Shown in pieces: positions 16,700 through 26,381 of a stretch of 64,000 nt of DNA. The notes below the pieces were generated by a model. It saw only the letters and a list, made by a program, of their open reading frames with translations. It was not told the DNA's origin and made no database searches. The first letter of the stretch is position 1; every line of letters starts with the position of its first letter. Both the position numbers and the translations under genes were made by a program. The stretch spans positions 3,472,001 through 3,536,000 of the forward strand of contig NZ_CP154796.1 of NCBI RefSeq assembly GCF_039566955.1. Reading direction: 5' to 3'. The stretch comes from Micromonospora sp. DSM 45708. Its GTDB lineage: Bacteria; Actinomycetota; Actinomycetes; Mycobacteriales; Micromonosporaceae.

Positions 16700-17578
16700 G
16701 TGTCCATCGTCGAGGACATCGGCGCGCAGGTCCGCGCCGCCGCCGAGGAGCTGCCGCTGGCGCAGCTCGCCGCCGCGCTGGAGAAGCTCGGCCAGGCGCA
16801 GGAACGGCTGCGCTGGGTGCGGCAGGAGTCGGCCGACCCGATGGGCGTGCCGGAGCTGACCGCCGCCACCGAACACGCCGAAACCGCCGGCTACGCGCTG
16901 CGCGTGGCGCAGGAGCAGCTCAGCGCGTACCTGGCCGCGATCGGGCTGGCCGCCGACGGCGCGCCGCCCGCGACGTCGGGCGAGCGGCGACCACGGCACG
17001 ACGCGCCACGCGGCGAGGCGCCGCCCGCGCCCGGCGCGGCGCCCGAGCCGGGCGAGCAGCCCGCGGTACGCCGCTGGTGGGCGGTCCGCGTGGCGGAGCT
17101 GACCGGCGGACGGGAGGGCGCGCCGGACGAGCCGGACGAGCGGGTCGAGAACGCCCAAGAGCTGCTGCGCCGGGTGGTGGTCGGCATCCGCTCCGGCGAC
17201 CGGGACCGGCTGCACGCCGAGCTGCGCCGGGCCCACGCCGACGTCGGGCTGGGACTGGCCGCGATCGCCCCGCCGATGCTGCGCGACCTCGCCGGGGAGC
17301 TGCTCGGCCACCCGCCCCGCGCCGACGACCTGACCCGGCTGCGCCGCGAGCTGGACGGGCGGGTCCGCGACCTGCTGCCCGGGTTGCCGCCGCCGGTGCT
17401 GGACACGCTACTCACCCGGATCTGCCGGATGCCCCCGCCGCGCCGCGACGACGGGCAGGAGCAGCCGCACGCCGCCGACCCGGCGGTCACCGCCGGGGTG
17501 CTCACCGGTGTGCTGCTCGACCGGCTCGGCCGGGACCTGCCGAAGGACACCGAGGAACGGGAGCCGTCGCGTGGCTGA
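16700..17578 (+). CDS. 292-aa protein with N-terminal helical hairpin, second gene of the FtsK-like operon
   Basis: GTG at 16700 follows aaggggcgg. Residues 1-85 again form a two-helix hairpin, with the turn at SADPMGVPE (about 45-53). A disordered Pro/Ala/Glu-rich linker follows (about 88-123), then a C-terminal helical domain (about 130-285) with WWAVRVAELTGG, LLRRVVVGIRSGDRDRLHAE and VLDTLLTRICRMPPP. No known family is recognised. The stop overlaps the next gene by 8 bp (GTGGCTGA). Possession of an N-terminal hairpin like that of the first gene hints at an interacting pair, as in EsxA/EsxB; this is inference. Confidence 0.75.
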   Translation: MSIVEDIGAQVRAAAEELPLAQLAAALEKLGQAQERLRWVRQESADPMGVPELTAATEHAETAGYALRVAQEQLSAYLAAIGLAADGAPPATSGERRPRHDAPRGEAPPAPGAAPEPGEQPAVRRWWAVRVAELTGGREGAPDEPDERVENAQELLRRVVVGIRSGDRDRLHAELRRAHADVGLGLAAIAPPMLRDLAGELLGHPPRADDLTRLRRELDGRVRDLLPGLPPPVLDTLLTRICRMPPPRRDDGQEQPHAADPAVTAGVLTGVLLDRLGRDLPKDTEEREPSRG

Positions 17579-20243
17579 CGTCCGCGCCCAACTGGTGACG
17601 CGGGTCCGGGGGATGCTCTCCGAGGCCCTGGGCGCCACCCGGAACCGGCTCGCCGCCGCCGACGCGGAGCTGGCCGCCGGCCGGGAGCGGCTGGCGCGCA
17701 CCCGGCGTGCCGCCGCGGCGGTGCCCGGCCGGGTCGGCGCGGCCCGCGACCGGCGACTCGCCGAGATCGACACCCGGCACGCCGCCCGCCTGGCCGAGCT
17801 GGCGCGCCGGGCCGCCGCCGCGGCCCAGCGGGAAGCGCCGGGTGCGGCGTCCGCGCCGTGGGACCGGTGGACGGCCACCCCCGCCGGGCGGGCCGAGCCG
17901 CCGGGCGCGGTCCGCATCGGCACGGTCCGCATCGCCGGCGCCGAACCGGTGCCGGCGCTGGTCCCGCTGCTCGACGCCGGGCACGCGCACCTGGCCGGCG
18001 GCGACCGGGACGGCCTCGCCGCGGTGGTGCCCGCGTTGCTGCTACGCTCCGTCGGCCGGGCCGACCCGGGCGCGGTCCGGCTGCACGGCTACGACCCGGA
18101 ACACCTGGGCGGCGGCCTGGCCGGGTTCGCGCCACTGGGCACCGCCGGCCTGCTCACGTTCGTCGGCCCGGGCGGGCTGGGCCGGCTGCTGGACGACCTG
18201 GTCGAGCAGATCCGCCGGATCAACGCCACGGTGCTGGCCGGCGAGTACGCGTCCCTGCGCGAGCTGGCCGCCGCGACCGGCCGGCGACCGGAGCCGTGGC
18301 GGGTGGCGGTGCTGCTCGGCGGCGACGAGCTGTCCCGGCACGAGCGCGGCCAGCTCGACCGGGTGGTCCGCACCGGGGCCGCGTGCGGGGTGCACCTGGT
18401 GGTCCGCGGCATCGACCTGCCCGACGACCCGACCGTCACCCGGATCGTGGTGGACCCGGACGACGCCCGCATCGCCGGCCTGCCGGTGGTGCTCGACGCC
18501 CCACCACCGCCCACCCTGGTCACCGAGACCTGCCGGGCGGTCGCCTCCCGGGTCGCCGCGGGACCGCCGCCGACGCCCTTCACCGATCTGCTGCCCCCGC
18601 CCGACGACTACTGGCGGGAGGACTCGGCGCACGGGCTGACCGCGCCGATCGGCGAGGGCCCGCACGGGCGGCCGGTGCTGCTGACGCTCGGCGACTACCC
18701 GCCGCACGCGTTGATCGGCGGCCCGTCCGGCACCGGCAAGACGAACCTGATCTTCGCCTGGATCGGCGCGCTCGCCGCCCGCTACTCCCCCGCCGAGCTG
18801 GAGTTCTATCTGCTCGACTTCAAGGAGGGAGTGTCCTTCGCCCGGTTCGCCCAGGGCCGGCGCGACCCGAGCTGGCTGCCGCACATGCGGCTGGTCGGGA
18901 TCAACGTCAACACCGACCGGGAGTTCGGCCTGGCGCTGCTGCGGTTCCTCGCCGAGGAGCTGCGCCGGCGGGCCGACGCGGCGAAGAAGCACGAGGTCAC
19001 CAAGCTGGCCGAGCTGCGGGCGGTGGACCCCACCGGGCACTGGCCGCGGATCGTCGCGGTGGTCGACGAGTTCCAGGCGCTGCTCGCCGGTCGGGACGTG
19101 GTCGCCCGGGAGGCCGCCGACCTGCTGGAGGACCTGGCGCGGCGGGGCCGCTCCCAGGGCATCCACCTGGTGCTCGCCTCCCAGGACGTACGCGGCATCG
19201 AGGCGCTCTGGGGCCGGCCCGCGCTGGTCGCCCAGTTCACGCTGCGCATCGCGCTGCCGAAGGCGCTGCGCATCCTGGCCGAACGCAACGACGCCGCGCA
19301 GTCGCTGCCCCGCCACCACGCCGTGGTCAACGCCGAGTCCGGCCTGACCGAGGGCAACGAGGTGGCCCGCATCCCGTCGGCCAGCGACTGGGAGACCTGG
19401 AGCGAGCTGCAACACCGGCTGTGGCGGATGCGCCCGCAGGACGCCGCGCCGGCCCGGCTCTTCGACGGCGACGCGATCCCCCGGCTGGCCGAGGCGCCGG
19501 ACTTCCGTGCCCTGAACGCCCCCGGGCAGGGCGTGCCGCGTAACCCGGTGGCGCTGCTCGGCGAGATCATCGACGTGCAGTCCCGTTCGGCGGTGCTGCG
19601 GCTGCCCCGGGCCCCGGGACGCAACCTGGCCGTGCTGGGCACCCGGGTGGACGAGGCGTGCGCGGTGCTCGACGCCGCCGCCCGCTCGTTGGCCCGGCAG
19701 TACCCGCCCGGCACCGCCCGGTTCTCCATCGCCTGTCTCGACCCGGACGCCGACCCGGCCGCCCGCGCGCTCTACGAGGACCTGGCCGGCGACGCCTCCT
19801 GGTACGACGAGGAGACGGTGTCCGAGCTGATGGCCGAGGTGGGTGACGGGCTGAGCGCGCCGGGCACCCCGCGTACCCCGCACTTCCTGCTGCTGTACGC
19901 GGTGGACGCGGCGGCCGGCGCGCTGGCCGGCAAGGCCGGCACCCGCACCGGGCTGGAGCAGCTGCGCCGGGTCCTGCACGACGGGCCGGAGCGGCGGACC
20001 CACGTGCTGGCCTGGTGGCGGGGCGTGGCCCGGATGCGGGCCGACCTGGGCGGCGCCGGCGCGCGGACGGACCAGATCGGCGCCTGGGTGGCGCTCGACG
20101 TGCAGGGCGGTGAGCTGGGCTCGTCGCTCTACCCGGGCAGCGGCGGCCCGGACTGGTATCCCCGGCCGTGGCGCGGTCTCTACTTCGACCGCGCGGTGCA
20201 CCGCACCGGACAGGTGATCATCCCTTATGGTCCCTCCCGATGA
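17571..20243 (+). CDS. FtsK/SpoIIIE (EccC)-like cytosolic ATPase
   Basis: An 890-aa motor protein. Residues 1-85 are a coiled coil (LAAADAELAAGRERLARTRR region). A domain of unknown fold follows. The intact FtsK domain has LIGGPSGTGKTNLIFAWIG (about 382-400), YLLDFKEGVSFARF, the Walker B-type IVAVVDEFQALLAG (about 493) and an LARRGRSQGIHLVLASQD sensor region. A second, degenerate ATPase-like domain starts near 683 (NLAVLGTRVDEA) without a Walker Lys. There is no membrane span or gamma DNA-reading domain, so it resembles T7SS EccC more than chromosomal FtsK. GTG 17571 overlaps the gene before it by 8 bp and the gene after by 4 bp. Confidence 0.85.
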   Translation: MADVRAQLVTRVRGMLSEALGATRNRLAAADAELAAGRERLARTRRAAAAVPGRVGAARDRRLAEIDTRHAARLAELARRAAAAAQREAPGAASAPWDRWTATPAGRAEPPGAVRIGTVRIAGAEPVPALVPLLDAGHAHLAGGDRDGLAAVVPALLLRSVGRADPGAVRLHGYDPEHLGGGLAGFAPLGTAGLLTFVGPGGLGRLLDDLVEQIRRINATVLAGEYASLRELAAATGRRPEPWRVAVLLGGDELSRHERGQLDRVVRTGAACGVHLVVRGIDLPDDPTVTRIVVDPDDARIAGLPVVLDAPPPPTLVTETCRAVASRVAAGPPPTPFTDLLPPPDDYWREDSAHGLTAPIGEGPHGRPVLLTLGDYPPHALIGGPSGTGKTNLIFAWIGALAARYSPAELEFYLLDFKEGVSFARFAQGRRDPSWLPHMRLVGINVNTDREFGLALLRFLAEELRRRADAAKKHEVTKLAELRAVDPTGHWPRIVAVVDEFQALLAGRDVVAREAADLLEDLARRGRSQGIHLVLASQDVRGIEALWGRPALVAQFTLRIALPKALRILAERNDAAQSLPRHHAVVNAESGLTEGNEVARIPSASDWETWSELQHRLWRMRPQDAAPARLFDGDAIPRLAEAPDFRALNAPGQGVPRNPVALLGEIIDVQSRSAVLRLPRAPGRNLAVLGTRVDEACAVLDAAARSLARQYPPGTARFSIACLDPDADPAARALYEDLAGDASWYDEETVSELMAEVGDGLSAPGTPRTPHFLLLYAVDAAAGALAGKAGTRTGLEQLRRVLHDGPERRTHVLAWWRGVARMRADLGGAGARTDQIGAWVALDVQGGELGSSLYPGSGGPDWYPRPWRGLYFDRAVHRTGQVIIPYGPSR

Positions 20244-20911
20244 ACGAACCGGTCTCCAGTGAGACGTACCGCGCCCAGATCCGCCGACTCGCCGAGTTGA
20301 CCGCCCGGGTGGCCGCCCAGCGGGCCGAGGCGCACACCTGGTACGCCCAACAGGTCGCCGCCGCCGACCGGGCGGTGGCCGAGGCGGACGAGCAGGTCCG
20401 GCTCGCCGAGGCGGAGCTGGCCGAGGCCCAGCGCATGGTGGACCGGGTGGACGGCGAGGTGACCCACCTGTGGGCGCAGCTACGCGCCCGGCTCGGCGGC
20501 GGCACCCGGCGCCTGGGCGACCCGCCCGGGCCGGTACGCGGTGCCGCCGGTGACCCGGTGCCGCTGCTGCGGGGCGTACGGGAGCTGCTGGAGCGCACCG
20601 GAACGCCCGGTGAGCTGCCCGGCTCGGTGAACCCGCTGCTGATCGCCTGCGGGGTGGGCGGCGCGCTGGTGGCGTACCTGCTGGGGATCGGGGCGCGGGC
20701 GCTGGGCGCCGGCTCGGGCGGTGACCTGGCGGTCGGCCTGCCGGTGCTGGCGCTGGTGGTGACGTTGCTCGGCCCGCTGGTCGGGCTGGCGCCGGCCCGG
20801 CTGCTGGCCGACCGCCGGCACGCGGTGCTGACCCCCCGCCCGATGATCCTGGTGGCCGCCAGCGGCCTGGCCACCACGCTGCTCCTGCTGACGGTCACCT
20901 ACACCCGCTGA
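20240..20911 (+). CDS. Coiled-coil membrane protein, last gene of the FtsK-like operon
   Basis: A 223-aa protein starting at the ATGA overlap with the ATPase stop. Residues 5-90 form a long coiled coil rich in Ala, Glu and Arg. After a Gly/Pro-rich linker come three hydrophobic spans: LLIACGVGGALVAYLLGIGA, LAVGLPVLALVVTLLGPLVG and MILVAASGLATTLLLLTV. It is likely the membrane anchor that docks the soluble ATPase through its coiled coil. No family is recognised. A large hairpin follows the stop. Confidence 0.75.
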   Translation: MNEPVSSETYRAQIRRLAELTARVAAQRAEAHTWYAQQVAAADRAVAEADEQVRLAEAELAEAQRMVDRVDGEVTHLWAQLRARLGGGTRRLGDPPGPVRGAAGDPVPLLRGVRELLERTGTPGELPGSVNPLLIACGVGGALVAYLLGIGARALGAGSGGDLAVGLPVLALVVTLLGPLVGLAPARLLADRRHAVLTPRPMILVAASGLATTLLLLTVTYTR

Positions 20912-20928
20912 CTCCGCCCCCGGCGCGG

Positions 20929-20984
20929 TGATCATCAGGTTGGCGACGCGACACGCCGTCGCGGGTCCGCCAACCCCATGATCA
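20929..20984. terminator. Long imperfect inverted repeat (tgatcat..ttggcg family) between convergent genes
   Basis: tgatcatcaggttggcg at 20929-20945 pairs with a right arm cgccaaccccatgatca ending at 20984, with the further pairing gcgac/gtcgc inside. It lies after the FtsK-like operon (stop 20911) and before the convergent cupin gene (stop 21023), so it probably ends both transcripts. A half copy of the same motif occurs at 47206-47225, showing that it is a dispersed element. Confidence 0.75.
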
Positions 20985-21022
20985 TCGAGGCGAGACGAGG
21001 CGAGGCCCGCGCGGTGAGCCGG

Positions 21023-22300
21023 TCAGGCGGGGACCAGGACGGCCTCCCTGAGCAGACGGCGGGTGAGGACCAGGCGGTCGGCGTCGTCGTCCAGGCCGGG
21101 CAGGTCGCCGACGCGGGTGGCCTCGCCGGTGAGCAGCGCGCGCAGCGCCGGCTCGCAGGTGCCGGGCAGCGTGAGCGTGCGGTCGGTCAGGCGCAGCGCG
21201 ACACTGCCGTCCCCGGTGGACGCGAGCTGCCAGCGCAGGCCGCCACGCGTCGCGACCCGGCTGTCGGGGCCGAGCCGGGCCAGCGCGTCGGCCTGGGCCA
21301 GCGGGCGGATCGGGGCCGGCCGGGCGGCCGGCCACACCCGGGACCGCAGCCGCGCGGCCACCGCCGCCGGGTCGGCCCGCAGCAGCCAGTCGCGCAGCGC
21401 CTCGACGGTCTCGGTGAGCTCCGGCTCGATCGCGTCCGGGTCGGCCAGGTCGAGGCCGAACGGCAGGCCGGCGCGCAGCCGGGCGTCCTCGGCGGCCAGG
21501 CCCAGCAGCTCCTCCACCATGGCGTACCGGGTCAGCGCCCGGATGCCCACGGTCAGGTGCAGCGAGCTGGACTCCTGCGCCTGGGCGCTGTGCAGCCAGC
21601 CACGCGGCAGGTAGAGCGCGTCACCCGGTTCGAGCACCACGTCCAGCGCGGGCCGGCCGTCGGCGGTGGCGGCGACCTCGTCGGCCCGGCCGCCCCACGG
21701 CTGGCGCTCCAGCGGGTCGGCGAGCACCGGCGGATGGATGCGCCAGTGCTTGCGTCCGTCGACCTGGAGCACGAACACGTCGTGGGTGTCGTAGTGGGTG
21801 GCGAAGCCCTGGCTACCGGCCGGCGTCAGGTAGGCGTTGACCTGCAAGGGCTGGGCCAACGCGGCGCCCAGGTCGCGGGCCAGGTCGACGATCGCCGGCC
21901 AGGTGCGGTGCAGGCCCTGGAGCACCAGCGTGGCGCCGTCGGCGTAGAGCGCCAGCACCTTCTCGTCCAGCACCTGGTCGCCGATCTCGGCGCCGGCGCC
22001 ACCGCCGCCGGTGTACCGCGCCGCCGGCACGAGCTGGCCGTCCTTGGCCACCCGCAGGAACGGGGTACGCAGGCCGCGCCGGCTGAGCAGCTCGTCGGCG
22101 TCGGTGGGGCTGAGCAGGTCGGTGAAGCCGTCCGGGTTGGGCAGTTCGGCGGCCCGGGACAGCAGCGGGCTGCGCCCCCAGTGGTCGGCGGCGAACTTGG
22201 CCGGCTCGACCGCCACGCACCGGGCCAACGCCGCGGCGGCGGAGGACGGACCCGCCGGGTGGCCGTGGCCACCCGGCGGGTCGACGTGCGTCAGGCTCAT
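21023..22300 (-). CDS. JmjC/cupin-4-type 2-oxoglutarate oxygenase-like protein, beside a repeat peptide
   Basis: A 425-aa protein of the ribosomal-oxygenase (YcfD/cupin-4) type. The double-stranded beta-helix carries the iron ligands: HYD in GFATHYDTHDVFVLQVDG (about 177-179) and the distal His in ALYLPRGWLHSAQAQ. KHWRIHPP is the typical strand after it. A helical dimerisation part and a C-terminal winged-helix-like part follow. Relatives hydroxylate Arg or His of ribosomal proteins; here the start is 3 bp after the stop of a repeat-peptide gene, so that peptide is the likely substrate (inference). ATG at 22300 gives MSLTHVDPPGG. Confidence 0.87.
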   Translation of the reverse strand: MSLTHVDPPGGHGHPAGPSSAAAALARCVAVEPAKFAADHWGRSPLLSRAAELPNPDGFTDLLSPTDADELLSRRGLRTPFLRVAKDGQLVPAARYTGGGGAGAEIGDQVLDEKVLALYADGATLVLQGLHRTWPAIVDLARDLGAALAQPLQVNAYLTPAGSQGFATHYDTHDVFVLQVDGRKHWRIHPPVLADPLERQPWGGRADEVAATADGRPALDVVLEPGDALYLPRGWLHSAQAQESSSLHLTVGIRALTRYAMVEELLGLAAEDARLRAGLPFGLDLADPDAIEPELTETVEALRDWLLRADPAAVAARLRSRVWPAARPAPIRPLAQADALARLGPDSRVATRGGLRWQLASTGDGSVALRLTDRTLTLPGTCEPALRALLTGEATRVGDLPGLDDDADRLVLTRRLLREAVLVPA

Positions 22301-22303
22301 CGG

Positions 22304-22606
22304 TCAGGCGCTGCCGTCGGCGCCACCGTCGTGCTGACCCGGGGTCGCGCCACCATCGGCCGGACCCTCCGCGCTGCCGTCGGCGCCACCGTCGTGCTGA
22401 CCCGGGGTCGCGCCACCATCGGCCGGACCCTCCGCGCCACCATCAGCGCCACCGTCGTGCTGACCCGGGGTCGCGCCACCATCGGCCGGACCCTCCGCGC
22501 CACCATCAGCGCCACCGTCGTGCTGACCCGCGGTGGCACCGCCGTCGGCCGGGCCCTCCTGGCCGCTGCCGCCGCTGGTCCGGATGTCGTCGTCGTTCAG
22601 TGCCAT
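22304..22606 (-). CDS. Tandem-repeat peptide, possible multi-core RiPP precursor
   Basis: The 100-aa product has a 16-residue lead (MALNDDDIRTSGGSGQ) and then exactly four 21-residue repeats of the type EGPADGGATPGQHDGGADGG plus Ala. Differences are few: Ala for Pro in repeat 1 and Ser for Gly near the ends of repeats 3 and 4. It is rich in Gly, Asp and Ala, with one His and one Gln per unit and no Cys. ATG at 22606 follows gagggag. The cupin oxygenase gene begins 3 bp after the stop, and a SigB/F-type promoter lies upstream. The leader-plus-repeats layout with a modifying-type enzyme is that of a multi-core precursor. Confidence 0.8.
   Translation of the reverse strand: MALNDDDIRTSGGSGQEGPADGGATAGQHDGGADGGAEGPADGGATPGQHDGGADGGAEGPADGGATPGQHDGGADGSAEGPADGGATPGQHDGGADGSA
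22307..22558 (-). repeat. Four tandem 63-bp repeats encoding the 21-aa units
   Basis: Units occupy 22496-22558, 22433-22495, 22370-22432 and 22307-22369 (order of translation). Units 2-4 are almost identical in DNA, while unit 1 differs at several synonymous sites, which suggests recent expansion within the gene. Confidence 0.9.
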
Positions 22607-22663
22607 GGGTGCTCCCTCGGTGTGCCGCCCCGCGTGTTCCCGGGGGCCGTGTGCAGCGGGTGG

Positions 22664-22688
22664 TACCCCACGCCCGATCGTCTCTAAC
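22664..22688 (-). promoter_or_regulatory. SigB/SigF-type promoter of the repeat-peptide/cupin operon
   Basis: On the minus strand GTTA (22688-22685), a 16-base spacer and GGGTA (22668-22664) lie 58 bp before the ATG at 22606. The -35 differs from GTTT at one base, as also seen before ctaD. Confidence 0.55.
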
Positions 22689-22772
22689 CACACCGTAGAC
22701 GCCCGGACCCGGGCGCACGCACGGTTCGCGCCCAAAGGCGGCCGGACCGCGGGTCCCCCGGACGCCCGACGG

Positions 22773-22794
22773 CCCGCCCCGCCGAGGGGGCGGG
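22773..22794 (-). terminator. Terminator hairpin after the DUF2267 gene
   Basis: cccgcccc (22773-22780) pairs with ggggcggg (22787-22794) over a short loop, 22 bp beyond the DUF2267 stop. Confidence 0.65.
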
Positions 22795-22815
22795 ACGGAC
22801 CGGGATGGGGCCGGC

Positions 22816-23244
22816 TCAGGGAATGAGCTGATCCAGGCCCTGCGGCATGGACGACTTCACGTCCTGCCACTCGCCCTGGGTGACATGCCGGCGCAGCGTG
22901 TCCAGCACCACCTGCACCACCCGCTGCGGACCGCCCGCCACGTCGTACGGGAAGCCCTGGCGGACCTCGTAGAGGAAGTCGTCGCGGTTGAGCTTGATCG
23001 GCACGTTCTCCGGCTGCCAGCCGTCGAAGTAGATGCCGCGCAGCAACACCGGCAACTGCTGGGCGAACTCGGCGCTCTCCGGCACCGGCAACCGGTCGCG
23101 CAGCAGGTGCAGCACGGTGCGCAGCGCCGCGTACGACTGGTTGCGGCGATCCGGCGGCCAGCCGTACGCCGACTCGATCTCCTTCAGGATCACGTTCGTC
23201 TTGTCCAGCGAGGACTCGAACGCGGACATCAGATGCTCAGCCAT
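22816..23244 (-). CDS. DUF2267-family protein
   Basis: A 142-aa helical protein of the DUF2267 family: TNVILKEIESAYGWPPDRRN, SYAALRTVLHLLRDRLPVPE, QLPVLLRGIYFDGWQPENVP and FLYEVRQGFP are its landmarks. The family is common in stress-linked gene sets, and its biochemical role is unknown. ATG at 23244 is 5 bp after the stop of a 61-aa codirectional gene. A hairpin terminator follows. Confidence 0.85.
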   Translation of the reverse strand: MAEHLMSAFESSLDKTNVILKEIESAYGWPPDRRNQSYAALRTVLHLLRDRLPVPESAEFAQQLPVLLRGIYFDGWQPENVPIKLNRDDFLYEVRQGFPYDVAGGPQRVVQVVLDTLRRHVTQGEWQDVKSSMPQGLDQLIP

Positions 23245-23249
23245 CCGGC

Positions 23250-23435
23250 TCACCCCCGGGTGTCGGTCTCCCAGCGTCGGTCGTCGGCGCGTCGCGGCGG
23301 CCCGCTGGGCCCCCGCCACAGCCGCGTCGGGCTGAACCGGCCGGGCCGCCCGCCCCGCTCCCGCGGCACGTCGGCGTCGCCGACCACGTGCAGCACGCCA
23401 CCGCGGCGTCGATCCGTCACCACCCGTACGGTCAT
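23250..23435 (-). CDS. 61-aa basic small protein
   Basis: The Arg/Gly-rich product (MTVRVVTDRRRGGVLHVVGD at the start) is highly basic and ends RWETDTRG. ATG at 23435 follows aggaggtgggtc, a strong Shine-Dalgarno, and the stop is 5 bp before the DUF2267 start, so the two form an operon. No family is recognised. Charge suggests nucleic-acid or ribosome binding; this is weak inference. Confidence 0.65.
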   Translation of the reverse strand: MTVRVVTDRRRGGVLHVVGDADVPRERGGRPGRFSPTRLWRGPSGPPRRADDRRWETDTRG

Positions 23436-24903: not shown

Positions 24904-25509
24904 TCAGCCGGTGCGGTCGATGGTCACCCGGGCGTCGTCGGCGAGCCGGTAGCCGACGCCGTAGACGGTGGTGACCAGCGGGACGTCCACCCCGACCTTG
25001 CCGCGCAGCCGGCGGACGTGCACGTCGACGGTGCGGACGCCGGCGTGCTCGTAGCCCCAGACCGCGTTGAGCAGTTGCAGCCGGGTGAACACCCGGCGCG
25101 GGTGGGCGACCAGGTGCAGCAGCAGGTCGAACTCCAGGCGGGTCAGCGGCAGCGGCTCGCCGTCGCGCAGCACCGACCGGGAGGACGCCAGGATGTGCAG
25201 CATCGGGATGGTCGGGGCCAGCGGGCGTGGCGGGGTGCGGCCGGCCGGCACGTCGGGCCGGCGGTCCGGCCCGGCGGTGCCGGTGCTGACCACCGCGTCG
25301 CCGCGTTCGAGCAGTTCGCGCGCCGCGTCGAGGAGCCGGCGGGCGGCCGGGGTGAGCGACTCCTCGCAGGACAGCGGGATGTTCAGGGTGACGGTGAGCA
25401 CCGGGGTGGTCGTGTTGGCGGGGCGACGCTGGCCGCCGGGCGGACGGCCGGGGACCGCGGGTTGGGACGTATGCCATCCGGCGCGCGACGAGGCGGGGCT
25501 GACCGACAT
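24904..25509 (-). CDS. OmpR-type winged-helix regulator without receiver domain (paralogue 1)
   Basis: A 201-aa protein. The N-terminal 100 residues are not a response-regulator receiver: after a disordered Pro/Arg-rich lead there is a strand-helix unit TPVLTVTLNIPLS ... LTPAARRLLDAARELLE. The C-terminal 95 residues are a complete OmpR/PhoB winged helix (LTRLEFDLLLHLVAHPRRVF, LLNAVWGYEH, RTVDVHVRRLRGKVG, TVYGVGYRLADDA). ATG at 25509 follows aaggagg. A second paralogue lies about 290 bp upstream in the same direction. No kinase partner is nearby, so it is not controlled by receiver phosphorylation. Confidence 0.85.
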   Translation of the reverse strand: MSVSPASSRAGWHTSQPAVPGRPPGGQRRPANTTTPVLTVTLNIPLSCEESLTPAARRLLDAARELLERGDAVVSTGTAGPDRRPDVPAGRTPPRPLAPTIPMLHILASSRSVLRDGEPLPLTRLEFDLLLHLVAHPRRVFTRLQLLNAVWGYEHAGVRTVDVHVRRLRGKVGVDVPLVTTVYGVGYRLADDARVTIDRTG

Positions 25510-25751
25510 GGTCCTCCTTGGCTGGTCCGGGTATCTCCCCACGGCCCGGGACGCCGCTTCATCGATGCTTCCCGGCGCTTGTGCGAGGGTCAAGGGGCCA
25601 CTGCGTTGCATGAATGTGACAATTGGCGAACACATCGGAGCCGAATGCTCGCTCTGCGTACGAGGTCCGTTGATTACAGCAGAGCGACGACACGCGCCGG
25701 TACGGGGGGTCCCCGGCCGGTTCACAGTGGCGGGTGCTGCGCCGACGTGGA

Positions 25752-25782
25752 CGCGGCGCACCCGGCATCCGGGTGCGCCGCG
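25752..25782 (-). terminator. Terminator hairpin after paralogue 2
   Basis: cgcggcgcacccg (25752-25764) pairs perfectly with cgggtgcgccgcg (25770-25782) over a 5-base loop, 18 bp beyond the stop at 25800. Confidence 0.8.
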
Positions 25783-25799
25783 GGTCGACCGGGGCCGGC

Positions 25800-26381
25800 T
25801 CAGGCGTCGCGGTCCACCTCGATCAGGGCGTCGTCGGCGAGCCGGTACCCGACGCCGTAGACGGTGGTCACCAGCGGCGTGTCCGGGCCGAACTTGGCCC
25901 GCAGGCGCCGGACGTGGACGTCCACGGTGCGGGCCACCGCGTGCTCGTAGCCCCAGACGTTGCTGAGCAGTTGCAGCCGGGTGAAGACCCGGCGCGGATG
26001 CTCGGCGAGAAAGAGCAGCAGGTCGTACTCGATCCGGGTCAGCCCGATTTCGAGGCCGCCGAGCCGGACCCGTCGGGTGCCGGTGAGCATGCGCACCCCG
26101 CCCGGCCCGGCGGCCGGCGTCGGCTCGGCCGGTGGCGCGGGGACGCGGCGCAGGTCGAGCACGGCCCGGGCGGCCCGGTGCTCCTCCGGCCGGACCAACC
26201 CCTCGCCGGAGGCGGCCAACTCGTCCAGCAGGTCCGCCAGCCGGGCCAGACCGGGCGTGAGCGGGCCGGCACTCAGGTCGAGCGTGATGGTCAGGGTCGG
26301 TGCGGTACGCGGCCGGGGCGCCGGCGCCCGGTCGGGGCGGCCGGGGCGGGCCGGACGGGTGTTGAGGGCGACGACGGACAT
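25800..26381 (-). CDS. OmpR-type winged-helix regulator without receiver domain (paralogue 2)
   Basis: A 193-aa protein with the same plan as its downstream neighbour: a basic Pro-rich lead, a TLTITLDLS ... LTPGLARLADLLDELAA unit, a linker, and an OmpR-type winged helix (LTRIEYDLLLFLAEHPRRVF, LLSNVWGYEH, RTVDVHVRRLRAKFG, TVYGVGYRLADDA). The DNA-binding parts of the two paralogues are nearly the same, while the N-termini diverge strongly, as in a duplication followed by sensory divergence. ATG at 26381 follows aggagg. It lies just after the terminator of the cysteine dioxygenase/rhodanese operon. Confidence 0.85.
   Translation of the reverse strand: MSVVALNTRPARPGRPDRAPAPRPRTAPTLTITLDLSAGPLTPGLARLADLLDELAASGEGLVRPEEHRAARAVLDLRRVPAPPAEPTPAAGPGGVRMLTGTRRVRLGGLEIGLTRIEYDLLLFLAEHPRRVFTRLQLLSNVWGYEHAVARTVDVHVRRLRAKFGPDTPLVTTVYGVGYRLADDALIEVDRDA

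Follow-up and report, generated by a model that had tools for sequence, protein, structure and literature searches.

On the minus strand of the window (the whole 64,000-nucleotide stretch of Micromonospora sp. DSM 45708 DNA that was analysed) is a gene for a 100-residue peptide (positions 22304–22606, including the stop codon), which its open reading frame, its homologues and the purifying selection on it mark as a precursor gene. Read from 22606 to 22304, the frame agrees with the initial annotation in comprising a 16-residue lead and four 21-residue units. The leader (residues 1–16, 22559–22606, minus strand) carries an LNDDDI motif that is kept among homologues, and the core (22307–22558, minus strand) is divided into units at 22496–22558, 22433–22495, 22370–22432 and 22307–22369; the translation reads MALNDDDIRTSGGSGQ followed by four copies of EGPADGGAT[A/P]GQHDGGADG[G/S]A and ends with the last unit. 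Each unit had been described as holding one His, one Gln and four Asp; the His and Gln are as stated, but there are three Asp and one Glu. Core composition is biased (G 36%, A 20%, D 14%), and the DNA of the four units differs pairwise at 1–11 of 63 bases, chiefly at third positions. No NCBIfam or Pfam model matched the window precursor, none of five other precursors exceeded the NCBIfam cut-off, and the peptide of locus L145 gave a single sub-cut-off NCBIfam match (daptide_123, E 0.009); as no curated model matched the precursors tested, assignment to a known RiPP precursor family was dropped.

Preceding the precursor ATG is a ribosome-binding stretch, CCGAGGGAGCACCC (22607–22620, minus strand), conserved in the upstream alignment, and further upstream is a conserved promoter-like box, GGTT-N17-GGGTAC (22663–22689, minus strand), seen in the alignment of 21 upstream regions and presumably read by a stress sigma factor. 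As read by eye, GGTTAG with a downstream GGGTA occurs in 15 of 19 Micromonosporaceae rows. Neither a sigma-70 promoter nor a terminator was detected in 20900–22900; an RNA element and a defence system were also considered and set aside, with no Rfam match in 20900–23300 and no PADLOC match.

Only 3 bp separate the precursor stop codon (22304–22306) from the ATG (22300) of the next gene, which encodes a 425-residue JmjC_2/cupin-4 oxygenase of the Fe(II)/2-oxoglutarate type (21023–22300, including the stop codon, minus strand); coordinates and alignment bear out both this spacing and the intact HxD...H reported initially. The protein matches PF08007 (E 1.7e-30; 105.6 bits, cut-off 22) and also Cupin_8, and the residues H169-x-D171...H237 are invariant in 33 aligned sequences; the Pfam score above the cut-off and the HxD...H triad place it in the JmjC_2/cupin-4 (PF08007) family. 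The nearest cupin among those compared, from Micromonospora sp. RP3T, is 96% identical, and the genome containing the window (one 7.0-Mb contig) has two PF08007 matches, the second at 2189730. Foldseek searches with the AlphaFold2 model of the whole cupin (pLDDT 89.9) returned NO66, MINA53, YcfD, YxbC and FIH, with structural-alignment identities of ~25% to NO66 and ~17–24% to MINA53 and YcfD. According to their PDB titles, the closest solved relatives act on His or Arg, not Asp. Among the literature matches listed, nothing described YxbC as a RiPP enzyme.

At the C terminus of the cupin is a winged-helix domain (approximately residues 345–425; 21026–21268, minus strand), predicted from AlphaFold2 and Foldseek to be RRE-like. 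Folded alone (pLDDT 92.5), it matches first the winged helices of NO66, MINA53 and YcfD, and then ThcOx, the heterocyclase of PDB 4v1t/u/v, TruD and TigE (probability 0.85–0.98, with weak E values of 0.03–0.25); among the 50 matches listed, these RiPP enzymes are the only further ones with a probability above 0.8. Winged helices are common, and ThcOx, this heterocyclase (which we take to be LynD), TruD and TigE bear RREs. As modelled, the cupin C-terminal domain resembles the leader-binding RRE domains of RiPP enzymes.

A peptide scan of genome contigs found at least 89 relatives of the precursor, of which the best 80 loci were kept; all record titles are actinobacterial. A cupin homologue is present in the fetched DNA of 75 of these best 80 loci, the remaining five being cut at contig ends. 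Repeats were counted in 72 complete precursors, comprising that of the window and 71 of the best 80 loci (nine were cut or frame-broken: L020, L022, L041, L046, L048, L053, L060, L071 and L073). An apparent peptide–cupin fusion in L022 and L048 was rejected, because the open frames seem to reflect frame changes in GC-rich sequence. The 72 precursors contain 255 units, 2 to 8 per precursor and 3 or 4 in 61 of them, and a single repeat pattern fits 254 of the 255. Units were split at EG..D, making the first Asp and the Glu conserved by definition, and conservation is tested by the later positions only; the later Asp positions (x-D-x-G-A-D) are retained in 254 of 255 units. Among the window precursor and 16 others of the same length (136 pairs), median pS is 0.41 and median pN 0.048, a ratio of 0.12; this low pN relative to pS among the 17 same-length precursors shows that selection acts on the protein, and the precursor peptide is under purifying selection.

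Pairing of peptide and cupin is nearly constant within the family. Among 121 Micromonosporaceae genomes, 69 have a cupin at E ≤ 1e-60 (the window's own included), and the peptide lies directly upstream of the cupin in 68 of them. The exact pattern EGPAD[GS]GA occurs within 1 kb of the cupin in 52 of the 69; inspection of the upstream DNA of the other 17 revealed 16 variant precursors with a similar leader and one genome, G396, with none adjacent, its precursor being elsewhere and unlinked to the cupin. The pattern is found away from the cupin in 4 of 56 pattern-bearing genomes: G396; G301, where a separate variant precursor accompanies the cupin; G394, at a contig end; and G299, in which no precursor ORF was detected.

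The pairing extends across the phylum. In a sample of 296 genomes, 46 have a cupin at E ≤ 1e-10, giving 52 places, all examined; two are cut at contig ends (L111 and L138), and a precursor is present at 39 of the 50 readable places, the distant precursor ORFs being judged by eye. At E ≤ 2e-38 the count is 35 of 36 readable places, the window's own included, made up of all 11 close cupins (one of them from the window), which have the EGPAD repeat, and 24 of 25 more distant cupins, which have an Asp-rich or acidic repeat ORF and a leader like LTDEDIETV. Cores of the distant precursors consist of DGDAxD/DADGTD units or other repeats, such as SADGTDQGVxGGTYGPRDAG in L103 and a 20-residue unit present twice in L145. 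At L096, the one exception, the ORF is acidic but not repetitive, although the cupin falls inside the EGPAD clade. A precursor accompanies only 4 of the 14 weaker cupin matches (E 1e-35 to 1e-17), namely L151–L153 and L155, and none was seen by eye among the upstream ORFs of the weaker cupins at L146–L150, L154 and L156–L159. The initial annotation had taken a normal absence of the peptide beside homologous cupins as grounds for abandoning its proposal; both samples reveal the opposite, and its reading of a leader, copied cores and a neighbouring enzyme, a RiPP-like logic, is supported by the comparisons of homologues.

In a quick maximum-likelihood tree (L088 omitted, some remote rows forming long branches), the EGPAD cupins fall into a single clade (SH-aLRT 100) that has L096 nested inside, and the Asp-rich cupins fall mostly together, with L159, which lacks a precursor, among them; precursor labels require fewer changes on this tree than in all 500 shuffles. 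Standing apart are eight remote Streptomyces-family cupins and the plasmid cupin of L164. Remote Streptomyces-type cupins at L154, L157 and L164 (3811–3969) follow a short ORF with GRSDGND at its end, which may represent a further precursor type with a single core.

Outside the Micromonosporaceae the cupin is usually followed by a third gene, encoding a Suc_Fer-like protein that is presumably a thioredoxin-fold ferredoxin. The three third genes tested match PF06999 (E 7e-22, 8e-18 and 2e-15), and a search by sequence found no solved homologue. Such a gene lies within 700 nt of the cupin end at 63 of 68 loci with downstream room, comprising 41 of 44 EGPAD loci and 22 of 24 distant-group loci, and at 0 of 36 Micromonosporaceae and 0 of 5 outgroup loci with room (4 + 1 + 7 + 10 loci without room were left uncounted); PF06999 has no match at E ≤ 0.001 in the window's genome. 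With start codons chosen by rule, some of them TTG, overlaps of 4 nt occur between precursor and cupin at 21 of 58 loci and between cupin and Suc_Fer-like gene at 15. Besides the Suc_Fer-like gene, no other gene is common across genera among 25 compared loci.

In the window, Pfam identifies a DUF2267 gene upstream of the pair and, downstream and convergent, a gene for an FtsK/SpoIIIE-type ATPase (17508–20243), whose position is kept in the six Micromonosporaceae loci that share it, including Paractinoplanes. Further neighbours are two Trans_reg_C proteins, a rhodanese, a cysteine dioxygenase, an ankyrin/DUF3500 pair and a methyltransferase; none of the window neighbours run in Pfam is a protease or transporter. 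At 24904–26297 (minus strand) are two adjacent proteins with a Pfam match limited to the OmpR-type DNA-binding domain.

Leader and winged-helix domain vary together. Between two anchors of the domain there are 26–31 residues in the 61 rows with a [DE]x[DE][IM]-type leader, compared with 19 residues in 27 rows without the motif, and overall the domain is 7–8 residues shorter in 27 of 29 motif-lacking rows. The raw table of 94 rows holds, besides these two classes, five rows scored as long without the motif and one as short with it; two of the five, L063 (SLNDDDIST) and L050 (RLNDDDMTT), do carry the motif, which read-on from upstream masks, a third (L073) is truncated and the other two (L066 and L067) are irregular; the single motif-bearing short row, L110, is also truncated. 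By alignment and the AlphaFold2 model, the length difference sits between the second and third helices of the domain. Leaders of the Streptomyces type lack an LNDDDI-type motif, and the short domain form belongs to the lineage of Streptomyces, Brevibacterium, Humibacillus and Microlunatus; because it is confined to this one lineage, the covariation is probably a single evolutionary event. As described in passages of Bregman et al. 2025 (PMC12710340), leaders bind the RRE as a strand on β3, and in the predicted StsA/StsC case the leader also comes near α2 and the α2/α3 loop. This loop would be the region altered in the short-form domains.

At the level of sequence, the peptide has the features of a RiPP precursor, being ribosomally encoded with a leader and a core, and the cupin is very probably dedicated to it. 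We consider it reasonably probable that the pair constitutes a multi-core RiPP-like system in which the oxygenase hydroxylates the repeats, most likely at Asp. The cupin would first bind the acidic leader (LNDDDI) through its RRE-like C-terminal domain; its JmjC active site would then move along the repeats, hydroxylating the invariant Asp, probably at the β-carbon and at up to 12 Asp in the window peptide. The Suc_Fer-like protein, present in most other actinobacteria seen, perhaps keeps the iron enzyme reduced. Because the cassette has no conserved protease or transporter, its product is probably intracellular, an Asp/hydroxy-Asp polymer that is perhaps metal-binding and made under stress; with no dedicated protease, a released core is not evident, and release in trans is possible. 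Each of these steps, from leader binding, hydroxylation and the target residue to the role of the Suc_Fer-like protein and the location and function of the product, is our inference.

The choice of Asp follows from what persists among the cores. In deep actinobacterial lineages the leader motif takes the form L-[TS]-D-x-[DE]-[IM], while the cores differ; most of these cores lack both His and Gln, and Asp recurs. Because Asp and the leader motif persist and other residues, His and Gln included, vary, Asp is the leading candidate for the modified residue. An unlikely but serious alternative retains the peptide as substrate of the cupin and assigns it other chemistry, for example His or Gln hydroxylation in this lineage, oxidative decarboxylation, desaturation or backbone oxidation. 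The reactions of 2OG enzymes are diverse, NO66 and MINA53 are His hydroxylases according to their PDB titles, and in 171 of 254 units the DGGAD Asp follows a His (the residue before the later Asp positions being Q in 63, R in 13, S in 4 and another in 3). However, 12 of the 72 complete precursors, like most deep-lineage cores, have no His in any unit, and Asp is common to all. In view of these His-less precursors and the deep-lineage cores, His or Gln as the general target, which the initial annotation had allowed, was rejected.

The closest solved structures being ribosomal oxygenases, the cupin might itself act on ribosomal proteins as YcfD and NO66 do, with the unmodified peptide as a structural or regulatory partner (an acidic disordered stress protein, a tether or an inhibitor), a role that its low complexity and acidity and the resemblance of the box to a stress promoter would suit. 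We regard this as improbable: repeat number ranges from 2 to 8 while the unit stays, in deep lineages the core is replaced but the leader motif persists, the behaviour expected if the cores are substrates, the cupin has a predicted RRE-like domain, and no comparable peptide is known to us next to YcfD or NO66. Biased core composition could suggest a chance low-complexity ORF in GC-rich DNA beside an unrelated enzyme gene, but this reading is refuted by the pN/pS of 0.12, the pairing across the phylum and a loose criterion of leader motif plus Asp-rich tail (which misses Streptomyces-type leaders, among others), satisfied at 45 of 75 cupin sites and at 31 of 1,560 random positions in the same loci.

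The favoured multi-core system can be extended to a bolder proposal, which we hold only tentatively and judge doubtful as a whole: a pan-actinobacterial three-gene cassette, of Asp-repeat precursor, RRE-bearing JmjC hydroxylase and Suc_Fer-like ferredoxin, that would make an intracellular poly-hydroxyaspartyl polymer as a tunable metal binder. Repeat number would set its capacity, output would depend on O2, Fe and 2-oxoglutarate, and the leader–RRE pair would have co-changed in the Streptomyces-containing lineage. If true, this would define a new RiPP class by its JmjC enzyme and would point to a common origin of RiPP leader-binding domains and the winged helices of NO66 and MINA53.

Several described systems resemble parts of this arrangement. 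NO66, MINA53 and YcfD share with the window cupin the fold, the JmjC core, the HxD...H triad and the C-terminal winged helix, but act on His or Arg of ribosomal proteins according to their titles, whereas the window cupin adjoins a repeat peptide. Cyanobactin-type precursors have one leader and several cores, as here, and the enzymes of that type (LynD/TruD, ThcOx) have an RRE domain, matched here by structure; unlike in that type, no protease, heterocyclase or transporter is conserved. Also comparable are PbsQ and BipG (biphenomycin type), JmjC/cupin enzymes that hydroxylate ornithine in RiPP precursors, as described in parts of PMC12257519 and PMC12707348; they likewise pair a JmjC/cupin oxygenase with a ribosomal precursor, but differ in their ornithine target and multi-enzyme clusters, the present cupin being the sole evident modifying enzyme and the cores being Asp repeats. 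Bregman et al. 2025 (PMC12710340) reported fish and algal proteins in which an RRE domain is fused to PF08007, and placed bacterial homologues of them in RiPP-like surroundings. Like the window cupin, those proteins combine PF08007 with an RRE-like fold within the protein; they differ in being fish and algal proteins with ~30% identical bacterial homologues, and section 6 of that article describes for them no precursor family, repeat, leader motif or Suc_Fer gene. Searches with the repeat strings found no paper, and no description of the precursor family was found in the literature searched, whose coverage takes in few subscription papers; the main text of the decRiPPter paper (PMC7794033) contains no occurrence of cupin, JmjC, hydroxylase or sucrase. 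This looks like a widespread actinobacterial family of enzyme-tailored repeat peptides, so far undescribed.

Such a family would provide a single-enzyme, multi-core peptide system whose class-defining JmjC hydroxylase is related to human NO66/MINA53, with hosts in Micromonospora, Streptomyces, Mycolicibacterium, Brevibacterium and other families of the phylum. For many bacterial 'cupin domain-containing proteins' without an assigned function it would suggest a substrate that can be tested; it would also offer repeat peptides with many predicted hydroxy-Asp sites and connect the little-understood Suc_Fer-like proteins with an oxygenase operon.

Related cupins are also found on plasmids. On the Streptomyces clavuligerus megaplasmid (L163, 3772–3918), a 48-residue peptide with LEPDEIEVI in its leader, followed by repeated Asp/Pro units, lies 92 nt before a cupin 35% identical to that of the window; a search for phage carriage of a related cupin with this homologue as query gave no match. 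A Dolichospermum plasmid (L160, 2652–5137) encodes, in order, a peptide (MSDEDIKSI, an LNGG stretch and a repeated NRSSAQL tail), a hypothetical protein and a related cupin. In a Mycetohabitans plasmid (L162, 1778–5128), a radical SAM gene, a 101-residue peptide and a related cupin are consecutive, with two 2OG-type oxygenase genes near, and in a Pseudanabaena plasmid (L161, 1–5158) a related cupin lies ~2.8 kb from a LanM-type lanthipeptide synthetase gene.
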